A stretch of 33,282 bases of DNA, taken from IMG/VR virus record IMGVR_UViG_3300021376_000201, positions 1 through 33,282 of that record; one strand, given 5' to 3'. This document shows, in pieces, positions 5,269-33,259 of the stretch (within the stretch, counting starts at the first letter, position 1; each line of letters starts with the position of its first letter). Under the pieces are notes generated by a model. The model had not been told where the DNA came from, made no database searches, and was given only the letters and a program-made list of their open reading frames with translations. Made by a program: the position numbers and the translations under genes. Origin of the DNA: a virus.

Positions 5269-5284
5269 TTTAACCTCCGAAAAT

Positions 5285-5293
5285 AGTATATCA
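5285..5293 (-). promoter_or_regulatory. Possible extended -10 promoter (TGA-TATACT)
   Basis: It lies between two oxygenase genes on the minus strand, 16 bases before the ATG at 5268, and is followed by a GGAGG ribosome binding site. No clear -35 is visible. It could give extra transcription of the last two oxygenases. Confidence 0.3.
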
Positions 5294-5295
5294 TA

Positions 5296-8410: not shown

Positions 8411-9126
8411 TATTTATATTTCCTTTTTGACCAAAATAATTTCTTATAGACCCCGCCCTCGCTGGTTCTAAATGTATCAGAAGTTTTCATTGTTTTTGCC
8501 ATAATTTCTTTTGCAGTATGAAAAACTATTTCAGACTCCCAATCTTCTCTTTTAAATGGAATTACTTGTAAATAAGGAGTGCCAGCTGGAACTATTCCAG
8601 TAAATCCTTCTTTTAAGAAGAACGGAATAAGGCCAGATGTTGTAACCTTATCGCTATCTATTATACCACCCACAGTAATCCACGGCAATTCAAAATGATT
8701 TATTGGTGGAACATATATTGAACTATAACCTTCTGGTAATTCTGGAGCCCAATTTGCATACCAATGAAAATGCCATTTACTGCATCCTATTGGAGTTGCA
8801 AATTCTTGCATTGGCGGTCTTTCTCCCACAAAATCGTCAAAACCGACTGGAACTTTAACTTTTATTCTTCCGTTTTTTTCATAAAATTCTAAATCACATG
8901 GAGTCAATAACATATACCCAGTTTGAAAAGTATCAAGTACTGCAGGGCAGGCTTTAAAACTTAGCATCTTGCCCTCACCATTAAAATTTGCAACTGGATT
9001 TCCTTCATGATCTTTTACAAATGTGTCTGAATTTTCCCACCAATGGGGTAAGGTTTTCCTTGCCGTTACAGGAACAGTATCTTCTTTATTGTAATGTTTA
9101 TTTGAATGAAATATAATTTTATTCAT
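8410..9126 (-). CDS. DUF6065-like phage protein
   Basis: A 238-residue soluble protein starting MNKIIFHSNKHYN. It contains PHWWENSDTF, then FKACPAVLDTFQTGYMLLTPCDLEF, and a C-terminal GFTGIVPAGTPYLQVIPFKR. The last block matches the one in the next upstream gene (VITIPANTPVISVMPISL), so the two are probably distant paralogues. Proteins of this type (resembling DUF6065) are found beside oxygenases and fibres in phages; their biochemical role is not known to me. The ATG at 9126 is chosen because it overlaps the preceding stop (TAATG). A start 15 bases earlier, inside the preceding gene, is possible, and neither has a clear ribosome binding site. Confidence 0.6.
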   Translation of the reverse strand: MNKIIFHSNKHYNKEDTVPVTARKTLPHWWENSDTFVKDHEGNPVANFNGEGKMLSFKACPAVLDTFQTGYMLLTPCDLEFYEKNGRIKVKVPVGFDDFVGERPPMQEFATPIGCSKWHFHWYANWAPELPEGYSSIYVPPINHFELPWITVGGIIDSDKVTTSGLIPFFLKEGFTGIVPAGTPYLQVIPFKREDWESEIVFHTAKEIMAKTMKTSDTFRTSEGGVYKKLFWSKRKYK

Positions 9127-9842
9127 TATTTTATACCACACTGTTCTGGACCATCAACTATATTTAATCTTAAAACTTTTATTTCATGGTCTCCAATTTT
9201 ATTTCCCTTATAGTTAACACCGTCTCTATAAAAATTTGTCCATTCGCCTTTTTTATTTATTTCTGAAACTATTTGTCCGTAATCCGCATCTGGGAAAAAA
9301 TTAGATGGAAGATCTGATATTTTTTTAATTACACCTTCTGAATTGTTTAATGATTTTAAAGAAATTGGCATGACAGAAATAACTGGAGTGTTTGCTGGAA
9401 TTGTTATTACTTCATTGGCTTTTGTTATTCTCCAAGCCACTGGAAACTCTCCTGCAAAAAAGGAAGTACTTATTAAAATAGTAAATGGCCAAACTCCATC
9501 TATTGGCCAATTTGGTGTAGGCATGGCCATCATGCTTAAATCTTCTTTGGTTCTTAATACTAATCCTGTTTTAAAACTAATAGTAGCATTTGATCTTCCA
9601 GTATAAACATATTTATGACCACTTAAAATTTTTACATGAGTATCTGTTGAGTCTGAAATTCCATCCCAAATGAAACTTATTTCTTCTGGAAAAGATATGC
9701 CCCAACCCAATCCATTAGATAATGTTACTGGAAAGCAGTGATATGCATGCTTATCAAAAGTCTCTTCCATCCATTGTCTTTTTATCGTTAATGGCTTTAT
9801 TTCTGCAGAATAAGGGCTAGCCTTATATATCTCAAACTGCAT
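9126..9842 (-). CDS. DUF6065-like phage protein
   Basis: A 238-residue soluble protein. It has the sequence build I associate with DUF6065: HCFPVTLSNGLGWGISFPEE followed by a tryptophan-rich strand, a GLVLRT segment, MPTPNWPIDGVWPF, and a closing PANTPVISVMPISL strand. These are beta-rich, possibly cupin-like folds, but I see no clear metal-binding triad. It sits in the middle of the oxygenase cluster next to its probable paralogue, so a common pathway is likely; no reaction can be named. A GGAT ribosome binding site lies 8 bases before the ATG. Confidence 0.65.
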   Translation of the reverse strand: MQFEIYKASPYSAEIKPLTIKRQWMEETFDKHAYHCFPVTLSNGLGWGISFPEEISFIWDGISDSTDTHVKILSGHKYVYTGRSNATISFKTGLVLRTKEDLSMMAMPTPNWPIDGVWPFTILISTSFFAGEFPVAWRITKANEVITIPANTPVISVMPISLKSLNNSEGVIKKISDLPSNFFPDADYGQIVSEINKKGEWTNFYRDGVNYKGNKIGDHEIKVLRLNIVDGPEQCGIK

Positions 9843-9845
9843 ATT

Positions 9846-10502
9846 TTAATATCCATCCTTTATAGACTTGTCTGACATAAATTGTCTATAAAATTGTTCA
9901 TTGTGTGTAGCATCATTATAATCTGTCATTGTAACAATTGAATATTTTAATCCAGACTTTACTGGTAATGCTGCATGAGAAAATAAATAGTTAGAAGGGA
10001 AGATGTATAAATCCCCAGCTTTTGGCTTAATGGTTTTATCAATTTTATCAAATCTTATCCCGCCATCCTCATAATCATCATTGATATAGGCAACCATAGA
10101 AACAGTAGCTATGTATGACCAACCATGATCTGAGTGATAAGAAAAGTGTTGACCTGGCCCATATTTAACAAAGTTCATTGCCTCCCAATATTTCATTTCA
10201 ATATTATAAAATGAACAATAATCATCTAAAGCAATTTTTTGAGCATCATGAACGTCTTGCCAAATTTTATCAAATTCTTTCATATACTTATCTTTGCCAG
10301 GATAATCAAAATATCTTAATTTAAAATCTACACAATCTCTATATTCTGGCATTTTTTCTCTATAACCAACCGTTGCATCTTGCCAGTTATACAAACCATT
10401 ACTGTTTTTTATTGTATTTTCTAATCTATTAATAATTTCAAATTCTGGCTTTATTACATTTCTATAAACCCATAGTCCTGGAAATAATTCTTGTTTTTCC
10501 AT
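9846..10502 (-). CDS. 2OG-Fe(II) oxygenase
   Basis: A 218-residue oxygenase with iron ligands H123-x-D125 (FSYHSDHG) and H176 (FSHAA) and anchor K186 (GLKYSIVTM). The core block is MVAYINDDYEDGGIRF, followed by IKPKAGDLYIFPS. The N-terminus has the shared QELFPGLWVYRNVIKPEFEI block, so it belongs to the long-leader group. It is the first oxygenase after the fibre module in the direction of transcription, and an AAGGA ribosome binding site precedes the ATG. Substrate unknown. Confidence 0.87.
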   Translation of the reverse strand: MEKQELFPGLWVYRNVIKPEFEIINRLENTIKNSNGLYNWQDATVGYREKMPEYRDCVDFKLRYFDYPGKDKYMKEFDKIWQDVHDAQKIALDDYCSFYNIEMKYWEAMNFVKYGPGQHFSYHSDHGWSYIATVSMVAYINDDYEDGGIRFDKIDKTIKPKAGDLYIFPSNYLFSHAALPVKSGLKYSIVTMTDYNDATHNEQFYRQFMSDKSIKDGY

Positions 10503-23834: not shown

Positions 23835-23867
23835 TCCCGAATAGATCCGCCTCTATTCGGGATTTTT
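23835..23867 (+). terminator. Strong intrinsic terminator, convergent
   Basis: Perfect 11-bp stem (23835-23845 with 23852-23862), 6-base loop, then TTTTT at 23863-23867. It ends the plus-strand operon. The stop codon and last codons of the convergent oxygenase gene lie inside the stem. In the other direction the stem is not followed by a U-run. Confidence 0.88.
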
Positions 23868-24386
23868 GCTATATATAAATCCTACCATCACAAACCTGTT
23901 ACCAGAAATAATTTTTTTTACCCCGTGAGTGCATTCTTCTGATGTTTCATGAACTAAAAGAGTTCCTGATAAAGGCTTAAGAATAATATTTTTATCAGTA
24001 TATACAACCTCTCCCCCCTCATAGTCATTGTTTAAATACAATACATATCCATAAACTGGAATTTCATTATTGTCAGAAGAATAATTTTCTTTGTCTGAAT
24101 GTGGGTAAAATGCCCATTTGTCATTAGATTTTTTATATTTTAAAACTTGGTCTGGCACATATATTCTTTCATTATTTTTAATTAATGATAAAAATTTATT
24201 ATTATATTTGTCTAATATTTCTTCTACTGTTTTATCTAAATTTATTTTTTTTGTAAAATGTATACTATGAGGCCAGCTGTTCCAGCCGTCTTCTAACTGA
24301 CAAAAAGATAGTATGATTTGTAAATCTATCTTATCTATAAAATTTTCAATATAAAAAATATCTTTATCCAAATAAATTTTATCCAT
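23853..24386 (-). CDS. 2OG-Fe(II) oxygenase, single domain
   Basis: A 177-residue oxygenase with complete ligands H96-x-D98 (FYPHSDKE) and H154 (CTHGV) and anchor R164 (GNRFVMVGF). The core block is YVLYLNNDYEGGEVVY, followed by ILKPLSGTLLVH. It is clearly close to the second domain of the 444-residue protein two genes upstream (same NIFYIEDF-type start, same KNII-KP-SGTLL-H pattern), so one derives from the other. It is the last gene of this cluster; its stop codon lies in the convergent terminator stem. The previous gene's last codons supply a GGAG ribosome binding site. Substrate unknown. Confidence 0.86.
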   Translation of the reverse strand: MDKIYLDKDIFYIENFIDKIDLQIILSFCQLEDGWNSWPHSIHFTKKINLDKTVEEILDKYNNKFLSLIKNNERIYVPDQVLKYKKSNDKWAFYPHSDKENYSSDNNEIPVYGYVLYLNNDYEGGEVVYTDKNIILKPLSGTLLVHETSEECTHGVKKIISGNRFVMVGFIYSKNPE

Positions 24387-24396
24387 TAAAGATCTC
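24368..24396. repeat. 29-bp gene-junction repeat, copy 1
   Basis: It spans the end of the sulfotransferase gene and the start of the 177-residue oxygenase gene. It matches 25001-25029 at 27 of 29 positions. Copy 1 holds a functional start codon. Confidence 0.85.
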
Positions 24397-24994
24397 CTAG
24401 TATTACGCTTTTCTCTATAGCCTTATTGTATAACTTGTAATGTTCTTCTAAAGGCAAACCTTTAATCATTTCCAGGTGGCGGTTATACAGAACATCTTTT
24501 TTTGAAGTAACAGTTTTTCTTTTGTCTTGAGTTTTAACGTGCCAACTAGAGTAGGATTTAAAATCTTCGTTGGTTAAGGAAAAGAATTTTCCCAATGAGT
24601 TACACAAAAATTTGGCAACCTTGTCTGTATTACTAATAACATCTTTAAAGTCAAAGAAGGTAACATTATGGTCTAGCATCTCAGAATAGTGATCTAAAAA
24701 TTGATTACTTCTAAACTGCATTTGAGAAAAATTTTCCATTACATTTATGGATGTTAATGACTCAATTGGATCTCTTGCAATTGAAAAAACCTTAGAGTAA
24801 TCTTTGCCTGCGGCAGACTGTATTTCATACATTCTAGATTTAAAGAATTCCGATGGAGTATCTTTATTTATTTTTACGTAGTGTCCAAAATCTATATCCA
24901 GGTCAGTATTTAAGTCTAAATACCATGATAGCCAATTTTTACCAGATCGGGGATAGGTTAAGAAATAAGCGTCAGGTTTTAAATTTACAATCAT
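24386..24994 (-). CDS. Sulfotransferase-like protein
   Basis: A 202-residue protein with the PAPS-binding P-loop of sulfotransferases near the N-terminus (FLTYPRSGKNWLSWYL, residues 11-26; the family consensus is TYPKSGTTW). A second conserved block, FSIARDPIESLTS at about 70-82, corresponds to the 3'-phosphate-binding segment. Such enzymes move sulfate from PAPS to hydroxyl or amine groups of sugars, lipids, small molecules or tyrosine. It is a little shorter than typical cytosolic ones. It lies between two oxygenases, so a hydroxylated product could be its acceptor; this is inference. It overlaps the next gene by one base (TAATG). Confidence 0.8.
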   Translation of the reverse strand: MIVNLKPDAYFLTYPRSGKNWLSWYLDLNTDLDIDFGHYVKINKDTPSEFFKSRMYEIQSAAGKDYSKVFSIARDPIESLTSINVMENFSQMQFRSNQFLDHYSEMLDHNVTFFDFKDVISNTDKVAKFLCNSLGKFFSLTNEDFKSYSSWHVKTQDKRKTVTSKKDVLYNRHLEMIKGLPLEEHYKLYNKAIEKSVILGDL

Positions 24995-25000
24995 TATTTA

Positions 25001-25029
25001 CCAAATAAACTTTATTCATTAAAGATCTC
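25001..25029. repeat. 29-bp gene-junction repeat, copy 2, with vestigial start
   Basis: Second copy of the junction repeat, at the end of the 175-residue oxygenase gene. Here the matching start codon at 25019 opens a frame of only 15 codons, so it looks like the remains of a displaced or deleted gene start upstream of the sulfotransferase. Confidence 0.8.
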
Positions 25030-25546
25030 TTTTATCTTTATTTTTGTTTTCTATGTAGTTTAAGTTTAGCACAACACGAATATTTGTATCTGTTTGAGAG
25101 TATCCACTATGCATAATATTAGAATCAAAAACCACTAATCTATTTTCTAAGCTCCCAATTTTCTCTCCGCTTTCAAACATAGTAAATCCATTATTTGTGT
25201 TTAAATAAAATATTGCAGTGGTATGTTTCATTTTGCTATCGGTATGCATACCACCCTCAATATGAATAGGAGTTCTTGTTCCAAGATTTGCTTTTACTCT
25301 CAGTATCTCTTCTGGATTAATTTTATTTATTAATGGCATAACATCTGAATAAAAATTAGATTTTACCCCAACATCTTTTCTATACATTAAATTAAAAAAT
25401 TGAAACTTATCTATTTCTTTTATTTCATTGGGATAGGCTACGTTAGGACTGTAGTACCATGGAAATTTTTCGTTATCTATAAAAACACTTTTTATTACTG
25501 CAAACTCTTTTTTGTCTAAATAGTTATCAAATATTTTGATGCTCAA
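25019..25546 (-). CDS. 2OG-Fe(II) oxygenase, divergent type
   Basis: A 175-residue oxygenase of a different sub-branch. It begins MSIKIFDNYLDKKEFAVIKS, has the ILRVKANLGTRTP block seen in phage enzymes of this type, and ligands H101-x-D103 (GGMHTDSK) and H146 (IMHSGYSQ) with anchor R157 (NIRVVLNLNY). The core lacks the EGGEL motif of the others and reads FYLNTNNGFTMFESG instead. It overlaps the end of the two-domain oxygenase gene by 20 bases. Such enzymes are known in cyanophages and pelagic phages; their targets are mostly unknown. Confidence 0.82.
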   Translation of the reverse strand: MSIKIFDNYLDKKEFAVIKSVFIDNEKFPWYYSPNVAYPNEIKEIDKFQFFNLMYRKDVGVKSNFYSDVMPLINKINPEEILRVKANLGTRTPIHIEGGMHTDSKMKHTTAIFYLNTNNGFTMFESGEKIGSLENRLVVFDSNIMHSGYSQTDTNIRVVLNLNYIENKNKDKRDL

Positions 25547-26861
25547 CTATATCCTCTTTTTTGTAAGTAAATCCAGTAAAAACTATTCTTCGTCCTCCAG
25601 AAAACCTTAAGACTCCATGCTCATATTCTTTTGATCCAGGATGACATAACAATGTACCAGATTTAGGTTTAAAAATAATATTTTTATTAGTATATTTAAT
25701 TTCTCCTCCAGAAAAATCATCTGTAATAAATATTACAATACCTTGTGCAACATTTGCAATTACACCATCATGATCAATATATGTGTCTTCTGTATTGTCT
25801 GAATGTGGTTGCATTATCCATTCGCCATTAGGATTTCGAGGGCTTCCTAAGTTTTTTTCATCTCCATAAACTATAATTGGAGGAGATCCACATGACCTAT
25901 AGAACTGAGTTTCATTATTTAAAAGATCTAATAATTTAGAATTATATTTTTGCCACAGATCACAAATTGAAGGGACTTCATAAATTTGATGAATTGCATG
26001 CTCATAAGCAGCTGATTTGGGAACTTTATTTACTTCTTCAACAATTATTTTTATGTCTTCTGGTGATACAAAATCTTCTATATAAAATATATTTTCTTCT
26101 AAATATTGCTTTTTAAATTTACTTTCTTTTCTTTTTTCTTCTACATTTTTTAAATTTAAAAAATCATGCGTAATGTTTTTAGTACTATCTTCAATTTTTG
26201 TTCCGTATGGAATAAAACCTTGAGATGGTCCCATTCTCCAAAAATGTGGAGTTATATATTTATATCCTTTAGGGTAAAGGGCTTCGTGTTCGTTTTCTAA
26301 ATCAGAAGATTTAAACATAATTATGCTGCCAGCCTCTGGCTTTATTGTTAAGTTATGTTTAACAAATTTTAATTCTCCGCCCTCATAATCATCATTATAA
26401 TAAATAACATATGAGTGTTCTAAATCATCATATGGGCAATCGGTATGAGGTCCTCTACTTGACATTGCGTTATATCTGCCAATTACATACCCTCCAGATG
26501 AAAGTTTTGGATTATGCTTTGTATCTATTTTCATCAAATCTGCATAAATTTCAGAACATTTATTAACTGCATCATCAATAGATTTAAAAACCCAATAACT
26601 ATCTGTATACACTTTATCTCGATCTGCTACATTATCAATAATGTTATATATGCATTTTGCTGATCCAAAATCAGGAGAAACAATACCTTCTTTTTTCCAA
26701 TCTCTTTCTTGCTCTAACGAAAAAGCATACTGGTTCCCCCAAGGAAGCCAGTCTGTTATCACATTATTGCTTGTTTTATTTATATAGTCTATAATTTCTT
26801 TAGAATTAGGTATTGCATTTTTAAAATAAAATATCTTTTCATTAAATACTTCATATTCCAT
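25527..26861 (-). CDS. Two-domain 2OG-Fe(II) oxygenase fusion
   Basis: A 444-residue protein made of two complete oxygenase domains. Domain 1 (about 1-215) has the long-leader start EVFNEKIFYFKNAIPNSKEI, ligands H139-x-D141 and H192 and anchor K201. Domain 2 (about 255-435) has the short-leader start NIFYIEDFVSPEDI, ligands H353-x-D355 and H415 and anchor R424. The linker is charged. Both active sites look intact, so it could act on two positions or two substrates. Domain 2 closely resembles the separate 177-residue gene. The start at 26861 has GGGAGG seven bases upstream; an in-frame ATG 15 bases earlier lies before that site and is less likely. Confidence 0.88.
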   Translation of the reverse strand: MEYEVFNEKIFYFKNAIPNSKEIIDYINKTSNNVITDWLPWGNQYAFSLEQERDWKKEGIVSPDFGSAKCIYNIIDNVADRDKVYTDSYWVFKSIDDAVNKCSEIYADLMKIDTKHNPKLSSGGYVIGRYNAMSSRGPHTDCPYDDLEHSYVIYYNDDYEGGELKFVKHNLTIKPEAGSIIMFKSSDLENEHEALYPKGYKYITPHFWRMGPSQGFIPYGTKIEDSTKNITHDFLNLKNVEEKRKESKFKKQYLEENIFYIEDFVSPEDIKIIVEEVNKVPKSAAYEHAIHQIYEVPSICDLWQKYNSKLLDLLNNETQFYRSCGSPPIIVYGDEKNLGSPRNPNGEWIMQPHSDNTEDTYIDHDGVIANVAQGIVIFITDDFSGGEIKYTNKNIIFKPKSGTLLCHPGSKEYEHGVLRFSGGRRIVFTGFTYKKEDIVEHQNI

Positions 26862-26921
26862 ACTATATCCTCCCAATTAAGTGAAAAAGTGCGGCGGAAA
26901 GTGAACCGAAAAATAGAACCA

Positions 26922-27035
26922 TCAATATCCCTTATTCTTCCATTTATCACTATCAAATTCACTAAAGGATGCCAATAGGGCAAAACCCATTAATATAATG
27001 CCCACTATGCATCCAATTATGAAGACTGTTTCCAT
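26922..27035 (-). CDS. Small single-pass membrane peptide
   Basis: A 37-residue peptide starting METVFIIGCIVGIILMGFAL. A strong membrane helix (residues 4-22) is followed by an acidic then basic tail (SEFDSDKWKNKGY). The ATG is preceded by TATAAT with exactly six bases between, as in three other genes, so a leaderless mRNA is likely. It sits between two oxygenase genes in an otherwise non-coding stretch. Function unknown; membrane micropeptides in phages can act in lysis control or exclusion, but nothing here shows that. Confidence 0.5.
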   Translation of the reverse strand: METVFIIGCIVGIILMGFALLASFSEFDSDKWKNKGY

Positions 27036-27041
27036 ATATAT

Positions 27042-27047
27042 ATTATA
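27042..27047 (-). promoter_or_regulatory. -10 box (TATAAT) for the membrane peptide
   Basis: TATAAT on the minus strand, six bases before the ATG at 27035, within an extremely AT-rich stretch. The -35 is weak, and the AT-richness lowers the significance of the match. Confidence 0.35.
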
Positions 27048-27246
27048 ATATATTTTTTATATATTGATATCTGGGGATATTAGATTTTAGCAAAGCCCCC
27101 CTTTCCCCCCGTTTGTAAAAATTACAAAAAGAGAGAAAGGAGGTTTATTTGTAGCTACACATCTGGTACATATTGAGTTTCAGTGTAAGCCCCCCACAAA
27201 CCAAAAGTAAGTGTAGCATTTAGTTTTCATCAAAGTCAAGAGGTAA
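27048..27246. other. Intergenic region with G-tracts and an orphan ribosome binding site
   Basis: No convincing gene. On the minus strand it has GGGGGG-AAA-GGGGGG plus a third G6 tract, a hairpin TTTGTAA / TTACAAA and a palindrome TGTAGCTACA. On the plus strand AGAAAGGAGGT at 27134-27144 is a perfect extended Shine-Dalgarno with no open frame after it. A promoter-like pair lies at its right end. Confidence 0.4.
27210..27239 (-). promoter_or_regulatory. Promoter after the 233-residue oxygenase gene
   Basis: On the minus strand -35 TTGACT (27234-27239), an 18-base spacer ending in TGC, and -10 TACACT (27210-27215). It points into the intergenic region and so would transcribe it, the membrane peptide and the oxygenases beyond. 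Confidence 0.5.
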
Positions 27247-27948
27247 TTAATATGAATAAGAAATATTAGGGACATAAAGCGCCCTATCTATTCCGCATCT
27301 TTGAGGTCTAATCAAACAAATTTCACATTTACATAAAGGTACGTATCCTTTACCTGGACCATCATGCCACATCTGTATTGTAAATGCTTTGGTACCTTCA
27401 GTTAAAAGTTTTGTGCCATGACTCAATTCTTTATCCGTAGAACTAAAAATTATTATATCCCCTGCATTTGGCTTTAATTCAAGCGGGTAGGATTCAAAGT
27501 ATAATTCTCCTCCAATATAGTCATCAGTCCAATAAATTAAAATTGAATGTTCTTCTCCAACATAATCATCTGGAGTGTCTATATGAAAATTAAGTTGATG
27601 TAGTAAATTATATACGGATATTGCAAAGCTTTTTTCAGGCCTAAATTCAACCTTAACATTATTTTTTTCTTTATAAATTTCAACACATTGAAGCAAGATT
27701 TTTCTAAAACTGTTTAAATATGAAAGCGTTTTTTCATCACAATCATTTTCGTTCCAATATTTTTGATGAAATGATTTAGTTTTACCATAATTCTGATTCC
27801 ATGTATCATCTCTCCAATCTTGCCATTCGCTAACAGCTAGATTGCTTGTTTTGTCAAAATACTCAAACATTTCTTTTGCATTTGGTATTGCTTTCTCAAA
27901 TACAAAAATTTTGTCGTGTAGTATATTGAGATTAATTTTAGTACTCAT
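27247..27948 (-). CDS. 2OG-Fe(II) oxygenase with cysteine-rich tail
   Basis: A 233-residue oxygenase with long-leader start LHDKIFVFEKAIPNAKEMF, ligands H122-x-D124 (NFHIDTPD) and H177 (LSHGT) and anchor K187. The core block is SILIYWTDDYIGGELYF. The last 30 residues carry CKCEIC and a further Cys (residues 206, 208, 211 and 218), a possible metal-binding tail not seen in the other copies. The ATG at 27948 is chosen because it puts the shared block near the N-terminus and overlaps the preceding stop by 11 bases; an in-frame TTG at 27990 is an alternative. No clear ribosome binding site. Confidence 0.83.
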   Translation of the reverse strand: MSTKINLNILHDKIFVFEKAIPNAKEMFEYFDKTSNLAVSEWQDWRDDTWNQNYGKTKSFHQKYWNENDCDEKTLSYLNSFRKILLQCVEIYKEKNNVKVEFRPEKSFAISVYNLLHQLNFHIDTPDDYVGEEHSILIYWTDDYIGGELYFESYPLELKPNAGDIIIFSSTDKELSHGTKLLTEGTKAFTIQMWHDGPGKGYVPLCKCEICLIRPQRCGIDRALYVPNISYSY

Positions 27949-28654
27949 GAGGCTTGGTATAAAAATTTTCTGGCAAATCATTTTTACCAAATATATCAGT
28001 TACAGCACTAGACATTTTAATTGCATCAACACCTTCATATAATTGATCTTTTTCTCTCAATGCCTGCGCTTCTGGTAAAGATGCAAATCCTGCCACTATA
28101 TAACGGATTCTATTGCCCTTTACAGGCTTTGTCCCATGTAAGTAGTCCTCCCATCCTGGATGTAGGAGCAAATCGCCCTTATTTGGCTTGTATTCAAAAT
28201 TTACGTATGGATAATATATTTCTCCCCCGTCAAAATTGCTTATATAATGGGTAACTCCAAATACACATTTATTATCTAGCCCCAGTGATTCCGCCAAATT
28301 ATCAGCATGTTCAAACATGGTCTGTCCTTCTGTCATTCTGTGAACTGAATTCATGCTTTCTACCCAAAGTTCTTGATTAAATAATTCTTGTAGTCTTACA
28401 CGCATATGTTTTAATTCTTGATCTAAATCAGGATCTTCTACAAAAAAGAATTTCCCGTGCCACCATTCTCTTTTATTTTTTTCCCACCATGCTTCTTCTC
28501 CAAATGATTCTGCATGATTTACTAGTCTGTCGCAAAGATCGTCTGATAGCCAGTTTTTTAAAACAACTATATTTTTTTCTATTAAAACAGCATTGGGTTC
28601 TTTTTCTAAAATTTGAGTTAATTGTTTTTTGACTATTGATGCATATGGTTCCAT
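27938..28654 (-). CDS. 2OG-Fe(II) oxygenase
   Basis: A 238-residue oxygenase with ligands H116-x-D118 (MFEHADNL) and H173 (YLHGT) and anchor R182 (GNRIRYIVAGF). The core block is THYISNFDGGEIYYPY, followed by YKPNKGDLLLHPG. It is of the short-leader type (NIVVLKNWLSDDLCDRL) and has a C-terminal extension of about 45 residues. Start taken at 28654, one base after the stop of the iron-sulfur carrier gene, which suggests coupling; the frame is open to 28708 but that would overlap the carrier's metal-binding end. Substrate unknown. Confidence 0.83.
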   Translation of the reverse strand: MEPYASIVKKQLTQILEKEPNAVLIEKNIVVLKNWLSDDLCDRLVNHAESFGEEAWWEKNKREWWHGKFFFVEDPDLDQELKHMRVRLQELFNQELWVESMNSVHRMTEGQTMFEHADNLAESLGLDNKCVFGVTHYISNFDGGEIYYPYVNFEYKPNKGDLLLHPGWEDYLHGTKPVKGNRIRYIVAGFASLPEAQALREKDQLYEGVDAIKMSSAVTDIFGKNDLPENFYTKPHEY

Positions 28655-28655
28655 A

Positions 28656-28982
28656 TTAGTTAAAACTATCTCCACAGGCACAGGAGCCCTGAGCATTCGG
28701 ATTGTCAATGGAGAACCCCTGGCTACTGATTGTGTCTTTAAAGTCCATTGTAGCCCCTTCTAGGTATATCCAGGACATCTTGTCTACCCTAACATCAAAA
28801 TCTTTATATCTAATTAACTCATCATCTTTAACTTCATAATCAAAATAAGTTTGATATCTTAATCCAGAGCATCCTCCAGGTTGTACAGCTATTCTCAAGA
28901 ATAACGTTCTATCTGTAAAAATAATTTGTTGTTCTTTTATTAATTCTCCCGCTTTTTTTACAGCAGATTCAGTTAATTTCAT
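28656..28982 (-). CDS. A-type iron-sulfur cluster carrier (IscA/ErpA-like)
   Basis: A 108-residue protein of the HesB/IscA family, which carries iron-sulfur clusters or iron to target proteins. The three ligand cysteines are present: C38 (QPGGCSGLRY) and C101/C103 (GSCACGDSF). The length is typical. It heads a minus-strand cluster of non-haem iron enzymes. It has a good promoter and no ribosome binding site; the -10 lies six bases before the ATG, so the mRNA should be leaderless. The next gene follows after one base. Confidence 0.92.
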   Translation of the reverse strand: MKLTESAVKKAGELIKEQQIIFTDRTLFLRIAVQPGGCSGLRYQTYFDYEVKDDELIRYKDFDVRVDKMSWIYLEGATMDFKDTISSQGFSIDNPNAQGSCACGDSFN

Positions 28983-29120: not shown

Positions 29121-29136
29121 TGTGATTATAATCACA
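29121..29136. promoter_or_regulatory. CRP/GlxR-like palindrome, site 1
   Basis: TGTGATTATAATCACA, a perfect 16-bp palindrome matching the TGTGA-N6-TCACA site of CRP-family regulators. It lies about 95 bases upstream of the predicted start of transcription of the first small gene. Confidence 0.65.
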
Positions 29137-29138: not shown

Positions 29139-29154
29139 TGTTTCATGTGAAACA
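29139..29154. promoter_or_regulatory. parS-like palindrome
   Basis: TGTTTCATGTGAAACA differs at one base from the bacterial chromosome-partition site TGTTTCACGTGAAACA (T instead of C at position 8). It overlaps CRP-like site 2, and copies of the 11-bp sequence ATCACAGATGT lie on both sides (29131-29141 and 29156-29166). Confidence 0.45.
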
Positions 29155-29161
29155 CATCACA
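29146..29161. promoter_or_regulatory. CRP/GlxR-like palindrome, site 2
   Basis: TGTGA-AACACA-TCACA, centred 25 bases after site 1 and about 70 bases upstream of the predicted start of transcription from the first TGTCRG promoter. Confidence 0.55.
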
Positions 29162-29195: not shown

Positions 29196-29217
29196 TGTCA
29201 GTCCCCCATGATAATAT
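29196..29217 (+). promoter_or_regulatory. TGTCRG-N10-TANNNT promoter 1
   Basis: TGTCAG box at 29196-29201, ten bases, then TAATAT at 29212-29217; C-rich subtype (TCCCCCATGA). It precedes the 65-residue gene at 29249, which has an AGAAAGGAAA ribosome binding site. Confidence 0.7.
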
Positions 29218-29248
29218 TTAATTATTAGATAAACAGAAAGGAAATATC

Positions 29249-29446
29249 ATGTCAAATCTATACTCAGTAGAATCTCTACTAATTGGCAAGGCTTATCGGT
29301 CTGCCTCCGTTGAAGGTGTTATTACAGACGCCGAGCCTTATACTAAGGCTTACTATGCTGATGCTGATGCTTATCGTGTGCGTGTTCGCCCTAGTGGCTC
29401 GCTATCCGATACCTATCGAATCGTAGCCGTAGCGCATGTGAGCTAA
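29249..29446 (+). CDS. Small protein of unknown function
   Basis: A 65-residue, mostly beta protein (MSNLYSVESLLIGKAYRSAS, then ending GSLSDTYRIVAVAHVS), with Ala-Tyr-Asp repeats in the middle. No known motif. It is the first gene of the plus-strand small-gene array, behind TGTCRG promoter 1 and an AGAAAGGAAA ribosome binding site. Its stop codon lies inside CRP-like site 3. Likely an early regulatory or host-interaction protein by position only. Confidence 0.6.
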   Translation: MSNLYSVESLLIGKAYRSASVEGVITDAEPYTKAYYADADAYRVRVRPSGSLSDTYRIVAVAHVS

Positions 29447-29452
29447 ATCACA
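29437..29452. promoter_or_regulatory. CRP/GlxR-like palindrome, site 3
   Basis: TGTGA-GCTAAA-TCACA. The inverted arms extend to 9 bp (CGCATGTGA / TCACATGCG, 29433-29456). It spans the stop codon of the 65-residue gene and lies about 65 bases upstream of the predicted start from TGTCRG promoter 2. As RNA it could also form a hairpin. Confidence 0.6.
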
Positions 29453-29480
29453 TGCGACACGCATAGGATAGGCTTGGAAA

Positions 29481-29502
29481 TGTCAGTCCCCTATGATAGT
29501 CT
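29481..29502 (+). promoter_or_regulatory. TGTCRG-N10-TANNNT promoter 2
   Basis: TGTCAG at 29481-29486, ten bases, TAGTCT at 29497-29502 (weak -10). It precedes a structured, non-coding stretch rather than a gene directly. Confidence 0.55.
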
Positions 29503-29530
29503 TACAGACATAACAATTAAATAAGAATTA

Positions 29531-29589
29531 GTAGAGCGTGAGCCTAGCAAATAAACCGAAAGGGTGAGCCTAGCAAATAACCGCTCTAC
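29531..29589 (+). ncRNA. Structured leader or small RNA with a duplicated 17-base motif
   Basis: Outer stem GTAGAGCG / CGCTCTAC (29531-29538 with 29582-29589, 8 bp perfect) encloses two identical 17-base copies, GTGAGCCTAGCAAATAA, at 29538-29554 and 29564-29580 (26 bases apart). It lies downstream of TGTCRG promoter 2 and 48 bases before the next ATG. It could be a small RNA, a protein-binding leader or an attenuator. No known family recognised. Confidence 0.45.
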
Positions 29590-29637
29590 AATACAACTAA
29601 ATAAATTACAATTAATAAACGAATAGGAAATAAATAA

Positions 29638-29796
29638 ATGAAAATCACTTACTCTATCTGGCAGGGCTCCTTAATCAAGGGTTCAAAGTTCACCGCCTCC
29701 AAAATGTCCGAGATTATCTCAGTAATCGAAGACCTAAACTCGGCTAAGCCAACAACTAAGTTCGAGTATTTCATAACACAAATCGAGCAGAATTAA
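29638..29796 (+). CDS. Small protein of unknown function
   Basis: A 52-residue protein starting MKITYSIWQGSLIKGSKFTA, ending FEYFITQIEQN. No known motif. An AATAGGAAA ribosome binding site precedes the ATG. Its stop overlaps the next start (TAATG), so the two are coupled. Confidence 0.55.
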   Translation: MKITYSIWQGSLIKGSKFTASKMSEIISVIEDLNSAKPTTKFEYFITQIEQN

Positions 29797-29909
29797 TGAA
29801 CGCTCAAGTTTTCGAGTGCGACTCTTGCTTTGGTCATGGGGTAATCTTTATCGGTGATGATGAAGATTATTTCATTGAGCCTTGCTTATGTCAGCCCGAC
29901 CCGCTATAA
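29796..29909 (+). CDS. Small zinc-binding protein (CxxC...CxC)
   Basis: A 37-residue protein: MNAQVFECDSCFGHGVIFIG, then acidic residues, then EPCLCQPDPL. The C-x-x-C-x-G-x-G and C-x-C pattern resembles half of a DnaJ-type zinc finger and recurs in the 67-residue protein at 31447, so the two are paralogues. Its last codons carry the TGTCAG and TATAAT boxes of promoter 3. It is coupled to the preceding gene by a TAATG overlap. Confidence 0.55.
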   Translation: MNAQVFECDSCFGHGVIFIGDDEDYFIEPCLCQPDPL

Positions 29910-29910
29910 T
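29889..29910 (+). promoter_or_regulatory. TGTCRG-N10-TANNNT promoter 3 (inside a gene end)
   Basis: TGTCAG at 29889-29894, ten bases, TATAAT at 29905-29910. It lies within the last codons of the preceding zinc-binding gene. AACGAAAGGAAA follows as the ribosome binding site. Confidence 0.7.
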
Positions 29911-29939
29911 AAAGCCCTAAACGAAAGGAAATAAATTAA

Positions 29940-30107
29940 ATGTATGCTATGTCATGGGAAAGAGATGTATCTACTTACAAATACGAATCAATACAAGACC
30001 CTTACTCAGTAGAGTTTGACGAATACGAATCAAGCGAGAGAGATTTATCGCTTGACGAATTGCTAGAAAATGAGTTAGACGAAATGGAAATAGAGGAAAT
30101 GCTATAA
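29940..30107 (+). CDS. Small acidic protein
   Basis: A 55-residue strongly acidic protein starting MYAMSWERDVSTYKYESIQD and ending LLENELDEMEIEEML. No known fold. Acidic small phage proteins can mimic DNA or bind host factors, but nothing here proves it. AACGAAAGGAAA precedes the ATG and TGTCRG promoter 3 lies upstream. Confidence 0.55.
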   Translation: MYAMSWERDVSTYKYESIQDPYSVEFDEYESSERDLSLDELLENELDEMEIEEML

Positions 30108-30188
30108 ATGGATAACTCACACCCACTAGCCCCTGTCGGTGGCAGGTGCTACAATTACAGACAACACAAAGAAAAGGAAAACAAATAA
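30108..30188 (+). CDS. Possible 26-residue micro-ORF containing a promoter
   Basis: Starts directly after the previous stop and ends directly before the next ATG: MDNSHPLAPVGGRCYNYRQH then KEKENK. Both the promoter 4 boxes and the AAGAAAAGGAAA ribosome binding site of the next gene lie inside it. It may be only a by-product of the promoter sequence; the similar frame at 31318 is more convincing. Confidence 0.25.
   Translation: MDNSHPLAPVGGRCYNYRQHKEKENK
30134..30155 (+). promoter_or_regulatory. TGTCRG-N10-TANNNT promoter 4
   Basis: TGTCGG at 30134-30139, ten bases (G-rich subtype TGGCAGGTGC), TACAAT at 30150-30155. An AAGAAAAGGAAA ribosome binding site follows. Confidence 0.7.
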
Positions 30189-30449
30189 ATGACCGCAACT
30201 TACACAGATTACCCATTCACAAAAGATGGTGTTAATTTCATTTCAAGAGTTTATTCTAACTCACCACATGCAAAAGATATTGCAGAAATGCCTCTTGCTG
30301 ATTTCGCTAACCTTAATGTTGAGGCTATTGACGAATTAATAGGCAACCCTTCTCTCTTAACTCGTGAAGAATTAGAGCATGAGTTAGCCTGCTTAAATGA
30401 GGGTGGCTCTCACTCTTTCGTCATGCTAAACGATGAGGTGTTAGTATGA
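30189..30449 (+). CDS. Small protein, paralogue of the 86-residue protein at 32392
   Basis: An 86-residue protein: YPFTKDGVNFISRV near the start, then EMPLADFANLNVEAIDELIG, then SLLTREELEHELACLNEG. The protein at 32392 has the same order (YPFTLDGIDFVSLI, AMPAEVRNNLNKQAL, YSLEELQGELDEVNLG), so they are duplicates. Function unknown. TGTCRG promoter 4 and its ribosome binding site precede it. It overlaps the next gene by four bases. Confidence 0.65.
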   Translation: MTATYTDYPFTKDGVNFISRVYSNSPHAKDIAEMPLADFANLNVEAIDELIGNPSLLTREELEHELACLNEGGSHSFVMLNDEVLV

Positions 30450-30640
30450 GTTTAACTAAAACACATTTCAAGGCTATCGCCTCAATTCTTAACGATGTAA
30501 AAAATGACATTCACCCACAAGTCTATGAAGATTTAGTAGATGGCTTCTCAAATTATTTTGGAATTAAAAACGAAAATTTTGACAAAGCAAGATTTGAAAC
30601 TGCTTGCGGTGTTGATGAGTTAGGACTAATTCCATCATGA
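30446..30640 (+). CDS. Small protein, paralogue of the 63-residue protein at 31856
   Basis: A 64-residue helical protein: MSLTKTHFKAIASILNDVKN, then DIHPQVYEDLVDGFSNYFGI, then ENFDKARFETACGV. The KxHFxxxAxIL...F...NxxFDxxxFxxAxxV pattern is common in small actinophage proteins of unknown function. Paralogue at 31856. ATGA overlaps on both sides (with the genes before and after). Confidence 0.65.
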   Translation: MSLTKTHFKAIASILNDVKNDIHPQVYEDLVDGFSNYFGIKNENFDKARFETACGVDELGLIPS

Positions 30641-30798
30641 CAATTTTAACAACTGATGTAATTGCAATAATAATTGCGCTTCTCGGTTTAATCGGAATTA
30701 CAATTCACGGACTAATTACACTTAGAAAATTAGAAAATGAAAATACAAGATTGAGAAAAGAAAATCTTGAAATGAAATGGAATCAAATAAAAGTTTGA
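30637..30798 (+). CDS. Small membrane protein with coiled-coil tail
   Basis: A 53-residue protein. Residues about 7-27 are a membrane helix (DVIAIIIALLGLIGITIHGL). The rest is a charged coiled coil (LRKLENENTRLRKENLEMKW). It overlaps the previous stop (ATGA). A shorter membrane protein in the same relative position at 32137 is probably the duplicate. Function unknown. Confidence 0.55.
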   Translation: MTILTTDVIAIIIALLGLIGITIHGLITLRKLENENTRLRKENLEMKWNQIKV

Positions 30799-30811
30799 TC
30801 TAAAATTTCCT

Positions 30812-30848
30812 CAGCTGTCCCCCAGCTGCCCGCAACGATTGTGCGGGC
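30812..30848 (+). terminator. Tandem hairpins after the small membrane gene
   Basis: CAGCTG-TCCCC-CAGCTG (30812-30828), then GCCCGCA / TGCGGGC with a 7-base loop (30828-30848). No U-run follows. A related hairpin lies in the same relative place at 32236. Confidence 0.4.
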
Positions 30849-30880
30849 GATTTGTCCGTTACGCCCGATTTTAAAAAACG

Positions 30881-30905
30881 CTGGAAATTTGTGAGATTTA
30901 TCACA
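30881..30905. repeat. 25-bp perfect repeat, copy 1, with CRP-like site 4
   Basis: Identical to 32288-32312. The last 16 bases (30890-30905) are TGTGA-GATTTA-TCACA, a CRP/GlxR-like palindrome. It lies about 50 bases before the TGTCAG box of promoter 5. Confidence 0.85.
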
Positions 30906-30953
30906 CGACACGCCGTCTCATTATTTGATATTACTGGCTAGTAAGTAGAAAAA

Positions 30954-30975
30954 TGTCAGACCCCCATGCTAAAAT
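30954..30975 (+). promoter_or_regulatory. TGTCRG-N10-TANNNT promoter 5
   Basis: TGTCAG at 30954-30959, ten bases (ACCCCCATGC), TAAAAT at 30970-30975, then AACGAAAGGAAA and the ATG at 31003. Confidence 0.75.
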
Positions 30976-31002
30976 GTAAGAAATTAACGAAAGGAAAACT
31001 AA

Positions 31003-31119
31003 ATGAAAATTTGTTGCTTTTGCGAAAAAGATTATTCAGATGAAGCCTTATTTTGCGGTTTCTGTAATGAGTATAAAAGTCTAATGACTGTTGAGGAATT
31101 TGACGCTATCTACGGATAA
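31003..31119 (+). CDS. Small zinc-ribbon protein
   Basis: A 38-residue protein MKICCFCEKDYSDEALFCGF, then CNEYKSLMTVEEFDAIYG. CxxC and CGFC give a complete four-Cys zinc ribbon. TGTCRG promoter 5 and AACGAAAGGAAA precede it. Promoter 6 starts at its stop codon. Likely a small nucleic-acid- or protein-binding protein. Confidence 0.6.
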   Translation: MKICCFCEKDYSDEALFCGFCNEYKSLMTVEEFDAIYG

Positions 31120-31141
31120 TGTCAGACCCCCCTGCTATAAT
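31120..31141 (+). promoter_or_regulatory. TGTCRG-N10-TANNNT promoter 6
   Basis: TGTCAG at 31120-31125, directly after the stop codon of the previous gene; ten bases (ACCCCCCTGC), TATAAT at 31136-31141, then AACGAAAGGAAA. Confidence 0.78.
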
Positions 31142-31168
31142 TAAAATTCAACGAAAGGAAAACTATAA

Positions 31169-31321
31169 ATGACACCTCAAGATAAATGGGAAAGACTCGC
31201 TAAGATTGAGCAACTAGCGAAAGATAAATACGGAAAAGATTATGCCCACGCTCTTTGGAGTTCTGCCTCATGCTTTTTAGAAGAATATGAAATGACAGTC
31301 ATGGAAAATGTGATGAAATGA
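31169..31321 (+). CDS. Small protein of unknown function
   Basis: A 50-residue helical protein MTPQDKWERLAKIEQLAKDK, then YGKDYAHALWSSASCFLEEY. No known motif. Promoter 6 and AACGAAAGGAAA precede it. It overlaps the next start by four bases (ATGA). Confidence 0.55.
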   Translation: MTPQDKWERLAKIEQLAKDKYGKDYAHALWSSASCFLEEYEMTVMENVMK

Positions 31322-31446
31322 AATTAGCTGAATTTAGAGAATTTATTATTGCTGAGCGTGAAGCAACACGCCAGCAAAACCTTGCGGCAATTTTGTCGGT
31401 GGTAAATGCTACAATATCAGACAACAACGAACGAAAGGAAAACTAA
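31318..31446 (+). CDS. Small protein whose 3' end carries the next promoter
   Basis: A 42-residue protein: MKLAEFREFIIAEREATRQQ, an amphipathic helix, then NLAAILSVVNATISDNNERK. The TGTCGG box codes within AILSVVN, the -10 within NATIS and the ribosome binding site within ERKEN. The stop codon directly precedes the next ATG. The N-terminal part looks like a real protein; the C-terminal part may be shaped by the promoter. Confidence 0.45.
   Translation: MKLAEFREFIIAEREATRQQNLAAILSVVNATISDNNERKEN
31394..31415 (+). promoter_or_regulatory. TGTCRG-N10-TANNNT promoter 7 (inside a gene)
   Basis: TGTCGG at 31394-31399, ten bases (TGGTAAATGC), TACAAT at 31410-31415; AACGAAAGGAAA follows. All of it lies within the 42-residue reading frame. 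Confidence 0.7.
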
Positions 31447-31650
31447 ATGAGTAAGACACAACAAGCACTAGCAGATATTCTTGCGTGTAAATTATGCGGT
31501 GGCAAGGGCTACAATTATTGGGGAAATGGCGAGGACTACGATATTGAAAATTGTATTTGTAATCCTTATGGTTTAATTATTGACGGCGAGGAAGTTATCT
31601 ATTCCGAACTAATTGACGAAAGTCTATTCACAACTAGCGAGGCTAACTAA
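31447..31650 (+). CDS. Small zinc-binding protein, DnaJ-finger-like
   Basis: A 67-residue protein with CKLCGGKGYNYWGNGEDYD, then ENCICNPYG. The CxxCxGxG...CxC pattern matches the 37-residue protein at 29796, so they are paralogues. The C-terminal 30 residues are acidic. TGTCRG promoter 7 and AACGAAAGGAAA precede it. It shares one base with the next gene (TAATG). Confidence 0.62.
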   Translation: MSKTQQALADILACKLCGGKGYNYWGNGEDYDIENCICNPYGLIIDGEEVIYSELIDESLFTTSEAN

Positions 31651-31856
31651 TGTATAAAATTTCTGTAATCTATGACGGAAAGCCTCACGAAGTTTTCCAA
31701 TACTCAGACGCTCTTGACGCTTTTCACACTTATTTATTTAAGTGTGTAGATGTCGGCTTTGCTACAAATAGCGCAACCTATAATTTAGAACTACCTGACG
31801 GCAAAATGTATAGTAAAAATTTTGTGCGTGGTATTGGTTTTGTAGGTGGTAAATAA
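31650..31856 (+). CDS. Small protein of unknown function
   Basis: A 68-residue mixed alpha/beta protein: MYKISVIYDGKPHEVFQYSD, then ALDAFHTYLFKCVDVGF, then TYNLELPDGKMYSKNF. No known motif. It is coupled to both neighbours by one-base overlaps. Confidence 0.58.
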   Translation: MYKISVIYDGKPHEVFQYSDALDAFHTYLFKCVDVGFATNSATYNLELPDGKMYSKNFVRGIGFVGGK

Positions 31857-32047
31857 TGATGACTAAAAAACACTATATTGAAACCGCTAAAATTCTAAAA
31901 TATGTTAGCGATAAAACTCACCCTGCCGTTTTTTCTAAAATGGTAAATGACTTTGCGGAAATGTTCGCAAAAGATAACCCAAGGTTTGATGTAAATACTT
32001 TTCACAAAGCGAGCAATTATCATGTTCCAAAATTTACCTCGGATTAA
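31856..32047 (+). CDS. Small protein, paralogue of the 64-residue protein at 30446
   Basis: A 63-residue helical protein: MMTKKHYIETAKILKYVSDK, then THPAVFSKMVNDFAEMF, then NPRFDVNTFHKAS. It matches 30446 in order and key residues (KxHxxxxAxIL, HPxVxxxxVxxF, NxxFDxxxFxxA). Function unknown. It overlaps the next small frame by 26 bases. Confidence 0.65.
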   Translation: MMTKKHYIETAKILKYVSDKTHPAVFSKMVNDFAEMFAKDNPRFDVNTFHKASNYHVPKFTSD

Positions 32048-32144
32048 AAAAGTTTTGGAATTGCGCCGTAGTAATGCGGCCTCTCCAATAAAATCTAAAA
32101 AAATCTATTCACGAAAGAGAAAGCATAAAAATAAAAATGTTTGA
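32022..32144 (+). CDS. Possible small basic protein
   Basis: A 40-residue frame: MFQNLPRIKKVLELRRSNAA, then SPIKSKKIYSRKRKHKNKNV. Extremely basic. It overlaps the preceding gene by 26 bases and the next start by 8 bases. No clear ribosome binding site, and it could be chance in an AT-rich stretch. Confidence 0.35.
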   Translation: MFQNLPRIKKVLELRRSNAASPIKSKKIYSRKRKHKNKNV

Positions 32145-32232
32145 ATTTATTTTATTTGTTGGCGCAGTTTCAATTTTTGGTTTAACTGTAATTAATTTAA
32201 TTAGGTTGCGCCAAGATCAAAAAAATTGCTAA
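32137..32232 (+). CDS. Small membrane protein, likely duplicate of 30637
   Basis: A 31-residue protein MFEFILFVGAVSIFGLTVIN, then LIRLRQDQKNC: one membrane helix plus a short basic tail. It occupies the same place relative to the helical paralogue, hairpin, 25-bp repeat and promoter as the 53-residue protein at 30637, with the coiled coil shortened. Confidence 0.45.
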   Translation: MFEFILFVGAVSIFGLTVINLIRLRQDQKNC

Positions 32233-32235
32233 GCG

Positions 32236-32252
32236 CCCGCAAATACTGTGGG
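32236..32252 (+). terminator. Hairpin after the second small membrane gene
   Basis: CCCGCA / TGTGGG (one G-U pair) with a 5-base loop, in the same relative place as the hairpins at 30812-30848. No U-run follows. Confidence 0.35.
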
Positions 32253-32287
32253 GGCCTGCAGCTCGTTACGTCAAATTAAAAATACCC

Positions 32288-32312
32288 CTGGAAATTTGTG
32301 AGATTTATCACA
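32288..32312. repeat. 25-bp perfect repeat, copy 2, with CRP-like site 5
   Basis: Identical to 30881-30905. TGTGA-GATTTA-TCACA at 32297-32312 is centred about 63 bases upstream of the predicted start from promoter 8, near the classical class I activation distance. Confidence 0.85.
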
Positions 32313-32339
32313 AAAAATAATTAGAACTAATTTAATAAA

Positions 32340-32361
32340 TGTCGGTGGGCTAGGCTATAAT
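32340..32361 (+). promoter_or_regulatory. TGTCRG-N10-TANNNT promoter 8
   Basis: TGTCGG at 32340-32345, ten bases (TGGGCTAGGC), TATAAT at 32356-32361, then AACGAAAGGAAA and the ATG at 32392. Confidence 0.8.
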
Positions 32362-32391
32362 TGCGACATAACCAAACGAAAGGAAATATAA

Positions 32392-32652
32392 ATGGAAACT
32401 GCTATTGATACAACAAATTGGATTAAATATCCTTTTACTCTTGATGGAATTGATTTTGTGTCTTTAATAGACCCAAAGGGAGATTTTTACCCACAATTAG
32501 AGGCTATGCCTGCTGAAGTTAGAAATAATCTTAACAAGCAAGCACTTAGAGAGTTTATTGGCTCACCCACCAATTATTCTTTAGAGGAATTACAGGGTGA
32601 ATTAGATGAAGTTAATCTCGGCTATTCGCAGGCTTTCTTAGCCTTAGCCTAA
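32392..32652 (+). CDS. Small protein, paralogue of the 86-residue protein at 30189
   Basis: An 86-residue protein starting METAIDTTNWIKYPFTLDGI. It matches 30189 in order: YPFTxDGxxFxS, a middle MPAEVRNNLNKQ, then EELQGELDEVNLG. Function unknown. TGTCRG promoter 8 with AACGAAAGGAAA precedes it, and promoter 9 starts three bases after its stop codon. Confidence 0.65.
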   Translation: METAIDTTNWIKYPFTLDGIDFVSLIDPKGDFYPQLEAMPAEVRNNLNKQALREFIGSPTNYSLEELQGELDEVNLGYSQAFLALA

Positions 32653-32655
32653 TAA

Positions 32656-32677
32656 TGTCGGTGGGTTAGGCTATAAT
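32656..32677 (+). promoter_or_regulatory. TGTCRG-N10-TANNNT promoter 9
   Basis: TGTCGG at 32656-32661, ten bases (TGGGTTAGGC), TATAAT at 32672-32677, then AACGAAAGGAAA and the ATG at 32708. Confidence 0.8.
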
Positions 32678-32707
32678 CTAACCCACTAACCGAACGAAAG
32701 GAAACAA

Positions 32708-32980
32708 ATGTTATCAACCGCAACTGCCTTAATTAAGGCAACCGAGGAAGCAATTTTTGATGATGAAGCCATGGCTTTTGCTCAAGGTTTTTGCCTTCAT
32801 GCTAAAGACTTAAATGAAAAACAATTCGCTAAGTCTATCTATGTTTATTCCTCCATTATCGCAAGCCTAGCAGTAGATAAGGCTATGAAGGTATTACTAA
32901 GTAAAGAGCAGGTAGAGGAACTATGCTCTGCCATTGACGAATTAGAGCAAATGGAAAAGGAAGTGTTAAATGGGGAGTAA
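32708..32980 (+). CDS. Small helical protein of unknown function
   Basis: A 90-residue, almost wholly helical protein: MLSTATALIKATEEAIFDDE, then IYVYSSIIASLAVDKAMKVL, then a Glu-rich end (CSAIDELEQMEKEVLNGE). No known motif. Promoter 9 and AACGAAAGGAAA precede it. It overlaps the next gene by 11 bases. Confidence 0.6.
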   Translation: MLSTATALIKATEEAIFDDEAMAFAQGFCLHAKDLNEKQFAKSIYVYSSIIASLAVDKAMKVLLSKEQVEELCSAIDELEQMEKEVLNGE

Positions 32981-33236
32981 TTTCGCTCATGAATTAGCTG
33001 ACTATGACTTAGGATTAGATTTATCTACTGCTATAAGGATACACCTAACTGCTAATCATTACCCGCCCGTTCCCGTATCTATGGTGGAACCTTGCATAGA
33101 TGCTATTGACGCATACCATAATGAGGACACGGATCAAGAAATACAAATGCCCGAAGGTATAACCTATAAAGGTAAAAAGACCGCCCCTGCTTGGGCTATC
33201 ATAGAGCAACACCACCTAGAGGCTTGGTGCGAATAA
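32970..33236 (+). CDS. Small protein of unknown function
   Basis: An 88-residue protein: MGSNFAHELADYDLGLDLST, then PPVPVSMVEPCIDAIDAYHN, then a basic KGKKTAPAWAII near the end. No known motif. It overlaps the preceding gene by 11 bases, with AAGGAAG about 10 bases before its ATG. Promoter 10 starts two bases after its stop codon. Confidence 0.6.
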   Translation: MGSNFAHELADYDLGLDLSTAIRIHLTANHYPPVPVSMVEPCIDAIDAYHNEDTDQEIQMPEGITYKGKKTAPAWAIIEQHHLEAWCE

Positions 33237-33237
33237 A

Positions 33238-33259
33238 TGTCGGTGGGCTATGGTAAGAT
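33238..33259 (+). promoter_or_regulatory. TGTCRG-N10-TANNNT promoter 10
   Basis: TGTCGG at 33238-33243, ten bases (TGGGCTATGG), TAAGAT at 33254-33259, then AACGAAAGGAAA at the window edge. The gene it serves lies beyond the window. Confidence 0.7.

Follow-up and report, generated by a model that had tools for sequence, protein, structure and literature searches.

The virus record IMGVR_UViG_3300021376_000201 of IMG/VR (33,282 bases, analysed over its whole length and referred to below as the window) carries near its right end ten copies of the element TGTCRG-N10-TANNNT, each of which stands ahead of one gene or a short overlapping operon. We estimate at about 80% the probability that these ten sites are PafBC-dependent promoters of the RecA-NDp type, borrowed from the DNA-damage regulon of the actinobacterial host. 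The phage and many of its relatives thereby seem to run their tiny early genes on the DNA-damage alarm of the host. With distinctly less confidence, although we favour this reading as well, the early region in a widespread branch of large actinophages would constitute a two-input regulon, in which composite promoters respond to host PafBC and host CRP/GlxR.

Searching the window in full and on both strands recovered exactly ten sites, all on the plus strand and all in the last 4 kb, against 0.45 expected, and none of 100 dinucleotide shuffles reached ten. The first-pass annotation, made from the letters alone, had given the same ten positions and the same fixed ten-base spacing, and had proposed a promoter element for small genes with a box too near the -10 to serve as a -35; the positions and the spacing are confirmed, and the proposal is supported. 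When one mismatch was allowed, 12 extra scattered sites appeared against 14 expected, none of them inside the gene cassette, and the motif is therefore all-or-none. Scanning the spacing on the plus strand of the window gave ten matches at spacing 10 and 0–2 at the others, except for spacing 5, where the five matches read as a second TANNNT within the same spacers. A scan for standard -35/-10 promoters yielded a weak excess only. The box is exact at all ten sites and is followed by TG in the five G-type sites and by other bases in the five A-type sites; an extended -10 (TGN or GGN ahead of the hexamer) is present, as annotated, at most sites, with CGC at 29889.

In letters and spacing, the window sites equal the published consensus of the mycobacterial LexA/RecA-independent DNA-damage promoter, tTGTCRgtg - 8 nt - TannnT (PMC5656591), and the earlier comparison, limited to the start-associated sequences of mycobacteriophages, gives way to this match. 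With TANNNT set at -12 to -7, the box falls at -28 to -23, next to a SigA -10 and with no usable -35. PafBC acts by sigma adaptation, the helix-turn-helix domain of PafB sitting on the -26 motif and that of PafC on SigA domain 4, and its signal is single-stranded DNA (ssDNA) in the WYL domains (PMC11804915).

All ten promoters point rightward. Promoter 1 (TGTCAGTCCCCCATGATAATAT, 29196–29217), with a PafBC-type -26 box and an extended -10, precedes an open reading frame (ORF) of 65 amino acids (29249–29446); promoter 2 (TGTCAGTCCCCTATGATAGTCT, 29481–29502) is followed by a structured leader of ~135 nt and then by a 52-amino-acid ORF (29638–29796), and promoter 3 (TGTCAGCCCGACCCGCTATAAT, 29889–29910) by an ORF of 55 amino acids (29940–30107). 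Promoter 4 (TGTCGGTGGCAGGTGCTACAAT, 30134–30155) serves three ORFs (30189–30449, 30446–30640 and 30637–30798), and promoter 5 (TGTCAGACCCCCATGCTAAAAT, 30954–30975) a Cys-rich ORF of 38 amino acids (31003–31119), the stop codon of which is abutted by promoter 6 (TGTCAGACCCCCCTGCTATAAT, 31120–31141; ORFs 31169–31321 and 31318–31446). Promoter 7 (TGTCGGTGGTAAATGCTACAAT, 31394–31415) lies within ORF 31318–31446, ahead of ORFs 31447–31650, 31650–31856, 31856–32047 and 32022–32144; promoter 8 (TGTCGGTGGGCTAGGCTATAAT, 32340–32361) precedes an 86-amino-acid ORF (32392–32652), promoter 9 (TGTCGGTGGGTTAGGCTATAAT, 32656–32677) ORFs 32708–32980 and 32970–33236, and promoter 10 (TGTCGGTGGGCTATGGTAAGAT, 33238–33259), directly after the preceding stop, a gene beyond the window end.

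At most sites the hexamer is then followed by (A)ACGAAAGGAAA and an ATG, as had been described, the deviating sites being 29196 (ACAGAAAGGAAA), 30134 (AAAGAAAAGGAAA) and 29481 (long leader). The sequence GAAAGGA is complementary to UCCUUUC at the 3' end of 16S rRNA, and the AACGAAAGGAAA leader reads as a Shine-Dalgarno ribosome-binding sequence separate from the promoter. In the leader of promoter 2 (29509–29640), GTGAGCCTAGCAAATAA is repeated within a hairpin of GUAGAGCG/CGCUCUAC (z = -2.1), and GAGCCTAGCAAATAA of the same leader recurs in leaders of two relatives (L008:5927 and L013:1519); an Rfam search gave no match, this leader included.

The element recurs upstream of small genes in relatives, which is where the first-pass annotation had suggested looking for it. 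At least 120 stretches of IMG/VR contigs contain the motif with its leader, against none for a scrambled box and two for spacing 13. The collected loci hold 813 further spacing-10 boxes, which are independent of locus selection; in the same loci, spacing 5 gave 219 matches and most other spacings 4–90. Most motif-bearing contigs (50–115 kb) carry 6–27 copies, which share one strand almost without exception and sit together in a short block. Of the 460 promoters in relatives, 351 are followed by a Shine-Dalgarno sequence with a start codon, compared with 14% for random positions. The flanks, taken over 169 unique sites, comprise an A/T-rich stretch, TGTCRG, T(0.80)G(0.63)G(0.61) and a G (0.82) two bases ahead of the -10, a profile that appears close to the mycobacterial motif. 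The two subtypes distinguished in the annotation, TGTCAG with C-rich and TGTCGG with G-rich spacers, hold in the window. In the relatives, TGG-type spacers occur with both boxes; ACCC-type spacers are commonest for A-type boxes (58/294), whereas the common spacers of G-type boxes do not include them. Portal-region loci of related phages (0.95 Mb) had been considered as motif carriers; with 16 matches against 3–23 at other spacings they show no excess, so they were rejected as such and kept as a negative control. Among 257 Gb of cellular genomes, the leader-extended pattern had 19 matches, near a rough chance estimate, and is therefore not informative on the host.

Two genes behind such promoters in relatives have homologues in other phages, one among the right-arm genes of cluster A mycobacteriophages, which are early genes, and the other within the first 3 kb of Streptomyces phages of the Karimac type; because of these homologues, the cassette genes are probably early. 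A single exact TGTCAG-N10-TANNNT is present in the cluster A mycobacteriophage LadyBird (L349; at ~46.29 kb of the record, minus strand), ~0.28 kb upstream of the immunity repressor gene, and may be due to chance. In many relatives, a tRNA-Asp(gtc) gene lies in or near the promoter array (L008:13900, L020:11534, L014:11951 and others).

A second component, which the first-pass annotation did not mention, is a set of helically phased palindromes resembling CRP/GlxR sites, the GlxR consensus being TGTGANNTANNTCACA (PMC4254451). The window contains five perfect copies of TGTGA-N6-TCACA, all no more than 68 bp upstream of four boxes and none elsewhere: two ahead of box 1 (TGTGATTATAATCACA, 29121–29136, centre 67.5 bp before the box; TGTGAAACACATCACA, 29146–29161, 42.5 bp) and one each ahead of box 2 (TGTGAGCTAAATCACA, 29437–29452, 36.5 bp), box 5 (TGTGAGATTTATCACA, 30890–30905, 56.5 bp) and box 8 (again TGTGAGATTTATCACA, 32297–32312, 35.5 bp). 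The remaining six promoters have none, and several of them start within or right at the end of the preceding ORF. The palindrome thus accompanies 4 of the 10 promoters in the window and about a fifth to a third of those in relatives: among 460 non-redundant promoters, 96 show a perfect copy, against 0/460 for four control palindromes, and 160 show one when a mismatch is allowed, against 0–38 for the controls. No perfect palindromes occur in the portal-region loci (0.95 Mb).

The distances from palindrome centre to box step through 26.5, 36.5, 46.5, 56.5 and ~67 bp, with a period of ~10.2 bp. Rayleigh values for this phasing are inflated by relatedness, and the stronger point is the existence of several distance classes one turn apart; in an independent scan, open to any gap of 17–47 and run with no leader requirement, 66 of the 77 non-redundant pairs were in phase, with ~31% expected. 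The same arrangement bears on the possibility that the boxes are repressor operators and the array a repressed regulon. Operators often overlap promoters, and the immunity repressor of cluster A mycobacteriophages is encoded close to the early genes; here, however, the box lacks palindromic symmetry and stays clear of the -10, and the phased upstream CRP palindromes point to activation, which makes this explanation highly improbable. Separately, TGTTTCATGTGAAACA at 29139–29154 is one mismatch away from a ParB parS site and overlaps the CRP palindrome at 29146; parS-like sites occur 14 times in relatives (L006–L125) and not in the portal-region loci.

Where the activator would come from was addressed by seeking WYL, Crp and WhiB families in virus records and by using, as host proxies, nine genomes of 1.2–1.4 Mb from the class of Pseudolysinimonas, the gene names of which are our reading of translations. 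No WYL protein is encoded in any of 48 virus records and no Crp ortholog in any of 31, while all nine proxies have both a tandem WYL pair (pafB-pafC) and a Crp/GlxR ortholog. In one proxy that was inspected, the neighbour of the WYL pair is an ORF that reads as tatC, and the pair itself matches the solved chains of PafBC (E 4e-40 for PafB and 6e-27 for PafC). The Crp of one proxy, when read out, showed the recognition helix GASRETVNKAL (SRETV) and matched M. tuberculosis CRP with E = 4e-77 and GlxR with 4e-73. The motif stands before recA or dnaE2 in eight of the nine proxies. It lies upstream of recA in seven. In five of these the RecA frame itself was seen, at the distance expected; in the other two, G139 and G149, the site is overlain by a longer ORF, and we infer recA from the downstream neighbour and position. 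Two proxies have the motif before dnaE2 (one with dinB), and two before a LysM-nrdR-ribonucleotide reductase block. Twelve proxy boxes, most of them before DNA-repair genes, were checked for palindromes and had none nearby; because of this, the composite, in which CRP dimers would be a whole number of helical turns away from a PafBC -26 box, looks phage-specific, none of the host DNA-repair promoters examined having shown it. Three small actinobacterial genomes (L267, L269 and L271) have the motif 24 nt ahead of an ORF read as CarD; an RNA polymerase regulator would then belong to the PafBC regulon.

These data also bear on the idea that a phage-encoded activator or sigma-appropriating protein, similar to MotA of T4, reads TGTCRG, with the likeness to PafBC reflecting mimicry or coincidence. 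Such phages have many small genes without an assigned role, and WhiB-like genes, which have been suggested as a key indicator of actinophages (PMC10202952), are found in 19 of the 34 virus records searched for that regulator; however, the lack of a WYL protein in the virus records, together with a box and spacing that equal the host consensus and recur before recA and dnaE2 in small actinobacterial genomes, renders this alternative unlikely.

Several observations weigh against dependence on host PafBC and CRP. Most virus records are fragments, which limits what the lack of WYL or Crp genes in them can show, and the proxies, stand-ins for a presumed host, were chosen by size and class. TGTGA-N6-TCACA is not enriched in the proxies (no perfect copies; 123 with one mismatch versus 130 for the control), which would mean either that these genomes have a tiny Crp regulon or that the phage has a different actinobacterium as its real host. 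About 12 of the 160 CRP sites are half a turn off, forming a minor group at 41.5 bp. Finally, the motif is missing from the whole genome of BillNye and the first 11.7 kb of Karimac, and in the latter many tiny genes carry upstream TAGACT-like hexamers and similar leaders with no box; it follows that the tiny-gene layout looks shared and the PafBC box particular to this branch. The SigA-like hexamers of Karimac, a related phage, also speak for strong extended -10 SigA promoters, constitutive and immediate-early, with the box contacted by RNA polymerase itself, and so does the commonness of TG before the -10 (G at that position 0.82 in relatives). Yet TGTCRG is near-invariant at one spacing in genomes whose other spacings are at background, and we regard SigA-only promoters as even less likely than a phage-encoded activator.

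On the favoured PafBC reading, a phage without an activator of this kind would be supplied with one by the host, in the form of PafBC activated by ssDNA. PafBC on the TGTCRG box (~-26) would bridge to SigA domain 4 and thereby allow the housekeeping RNA polymerase to start at promoters with no -35. The block of tiny genes, which are probably early and have one Shine-Dalgarno leader each, would be driven in this way. Where the upstream DNA is free, a host CRP/GlxR dimer with cyclic AMP, placed at a fixed helical phase, could add activation, and ssDNA produced by the infection may raise expression further; the trigger may be this ssDNA, or PafBC at its basal activity may be enough. Binding, activation, timing and the identity of the host are all predictions from sequence. 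In the titles and abstract openings of the openly licensed literature searched, we found no description of phage promoters of this kind or of the PafBC–CRP composite architecture. If correct, the model provides a testable account of how uncultured actinophages start their early programme and ties takeover to the DNA-damage sensor of the host: damage to host DNA should be to the advantage of these phages, and pafBC mutants should be resistant. The hundreds of variants make up a natural library of PafBC promoters, which shows the positions that matter, and the phased CRP sites predict an action of CRP on the PafBC–RNA polymerase complex, on which we found no earlier study.

The left 29 kb of the window consist mainly of leftward structural and auxiliary genes, including those for the portal, tail fibres, many 2OG-Fe(II) oxygenases and ribonucleotide reductase. 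The portal is 55–60% identical to that of Streptomyces phages of 120–134 kb, such as BillNye (Stanwilliamsviridae), and the record is therefore probably a fragment of a large actinophage. The 2OG-Fe(II) oxygenase genes are unusually numerous (~10 or more, at 3988–10502 and 23853–28708), and an Fe-S biogenesis protein is encoded alongside them (28656–28982). At 29.2 kb the strand switches, and from there on runs the rightward cassette of ~16 tiny ORFs of 38–90 amino acids (29249–33236, plus strand) served by the ten promoters. Almost no known domains are present: PHROGs and Pfam searches of the cassette proteins returned essentially no match, the region has no nucleotide matches among known phages, the first cassette protein has no homologues among the phages or plasmids searched, and no lysogeny genes were seen among the proteins scanned. 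By eye, the cassette contains paralogous modules (within 30189–30798 and 31650–32652), namely ORFs 30189 and 32392 (YPFT..DG), ORFs 30446 and 31856 (KTHF/KKHY) and two short membrane-type peptides, ORFs 30637 and 32022.

Compared with known systems, the arrays share with the mycobacteriophage start-associated sequences a repeated element before small genes, and we know of no sequence likeness between the two. The middle promoters of T4, at which a MotA box near -30 replaces the -35 and the housekeeping sigma, with AsiA, uses an extended -10, offer a similar arrangement of activator box and extended -10; however, T4 encodes MotA and AsiA, whereas here the activator would be that of the host. 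Coliphage 186 likewise wires a gene to the host DNA-damage response, tum being repressed by LexA and acting in prophage induction, whereas the window would rely on activation by PafBC at many promoters. The palindromes resemble class I style CRP/GlxR promoters in being perfect TGTGA-N6-TCACA sites at distances stepping by one helical turn, with centres that would be offset by ~3 bp relative to the class I positions of E. coli if transcription starts 7 nt after the -10, but they are joined to a PafBC box and not to a -35. The mycobacterial RecA-NDp promoters, such as recA P1 under PafBC, have the same TGTCRG box at ~-26, ten bases from TANNNT and with no need for a -35; those described here, by contrast, belong to a phage and form arrays of ten or more, the genes they precede are tiny ones instead of repair genes, and they often come with a CRP palindrome, which is lacking at the repair-gene promoters of the host proxies.

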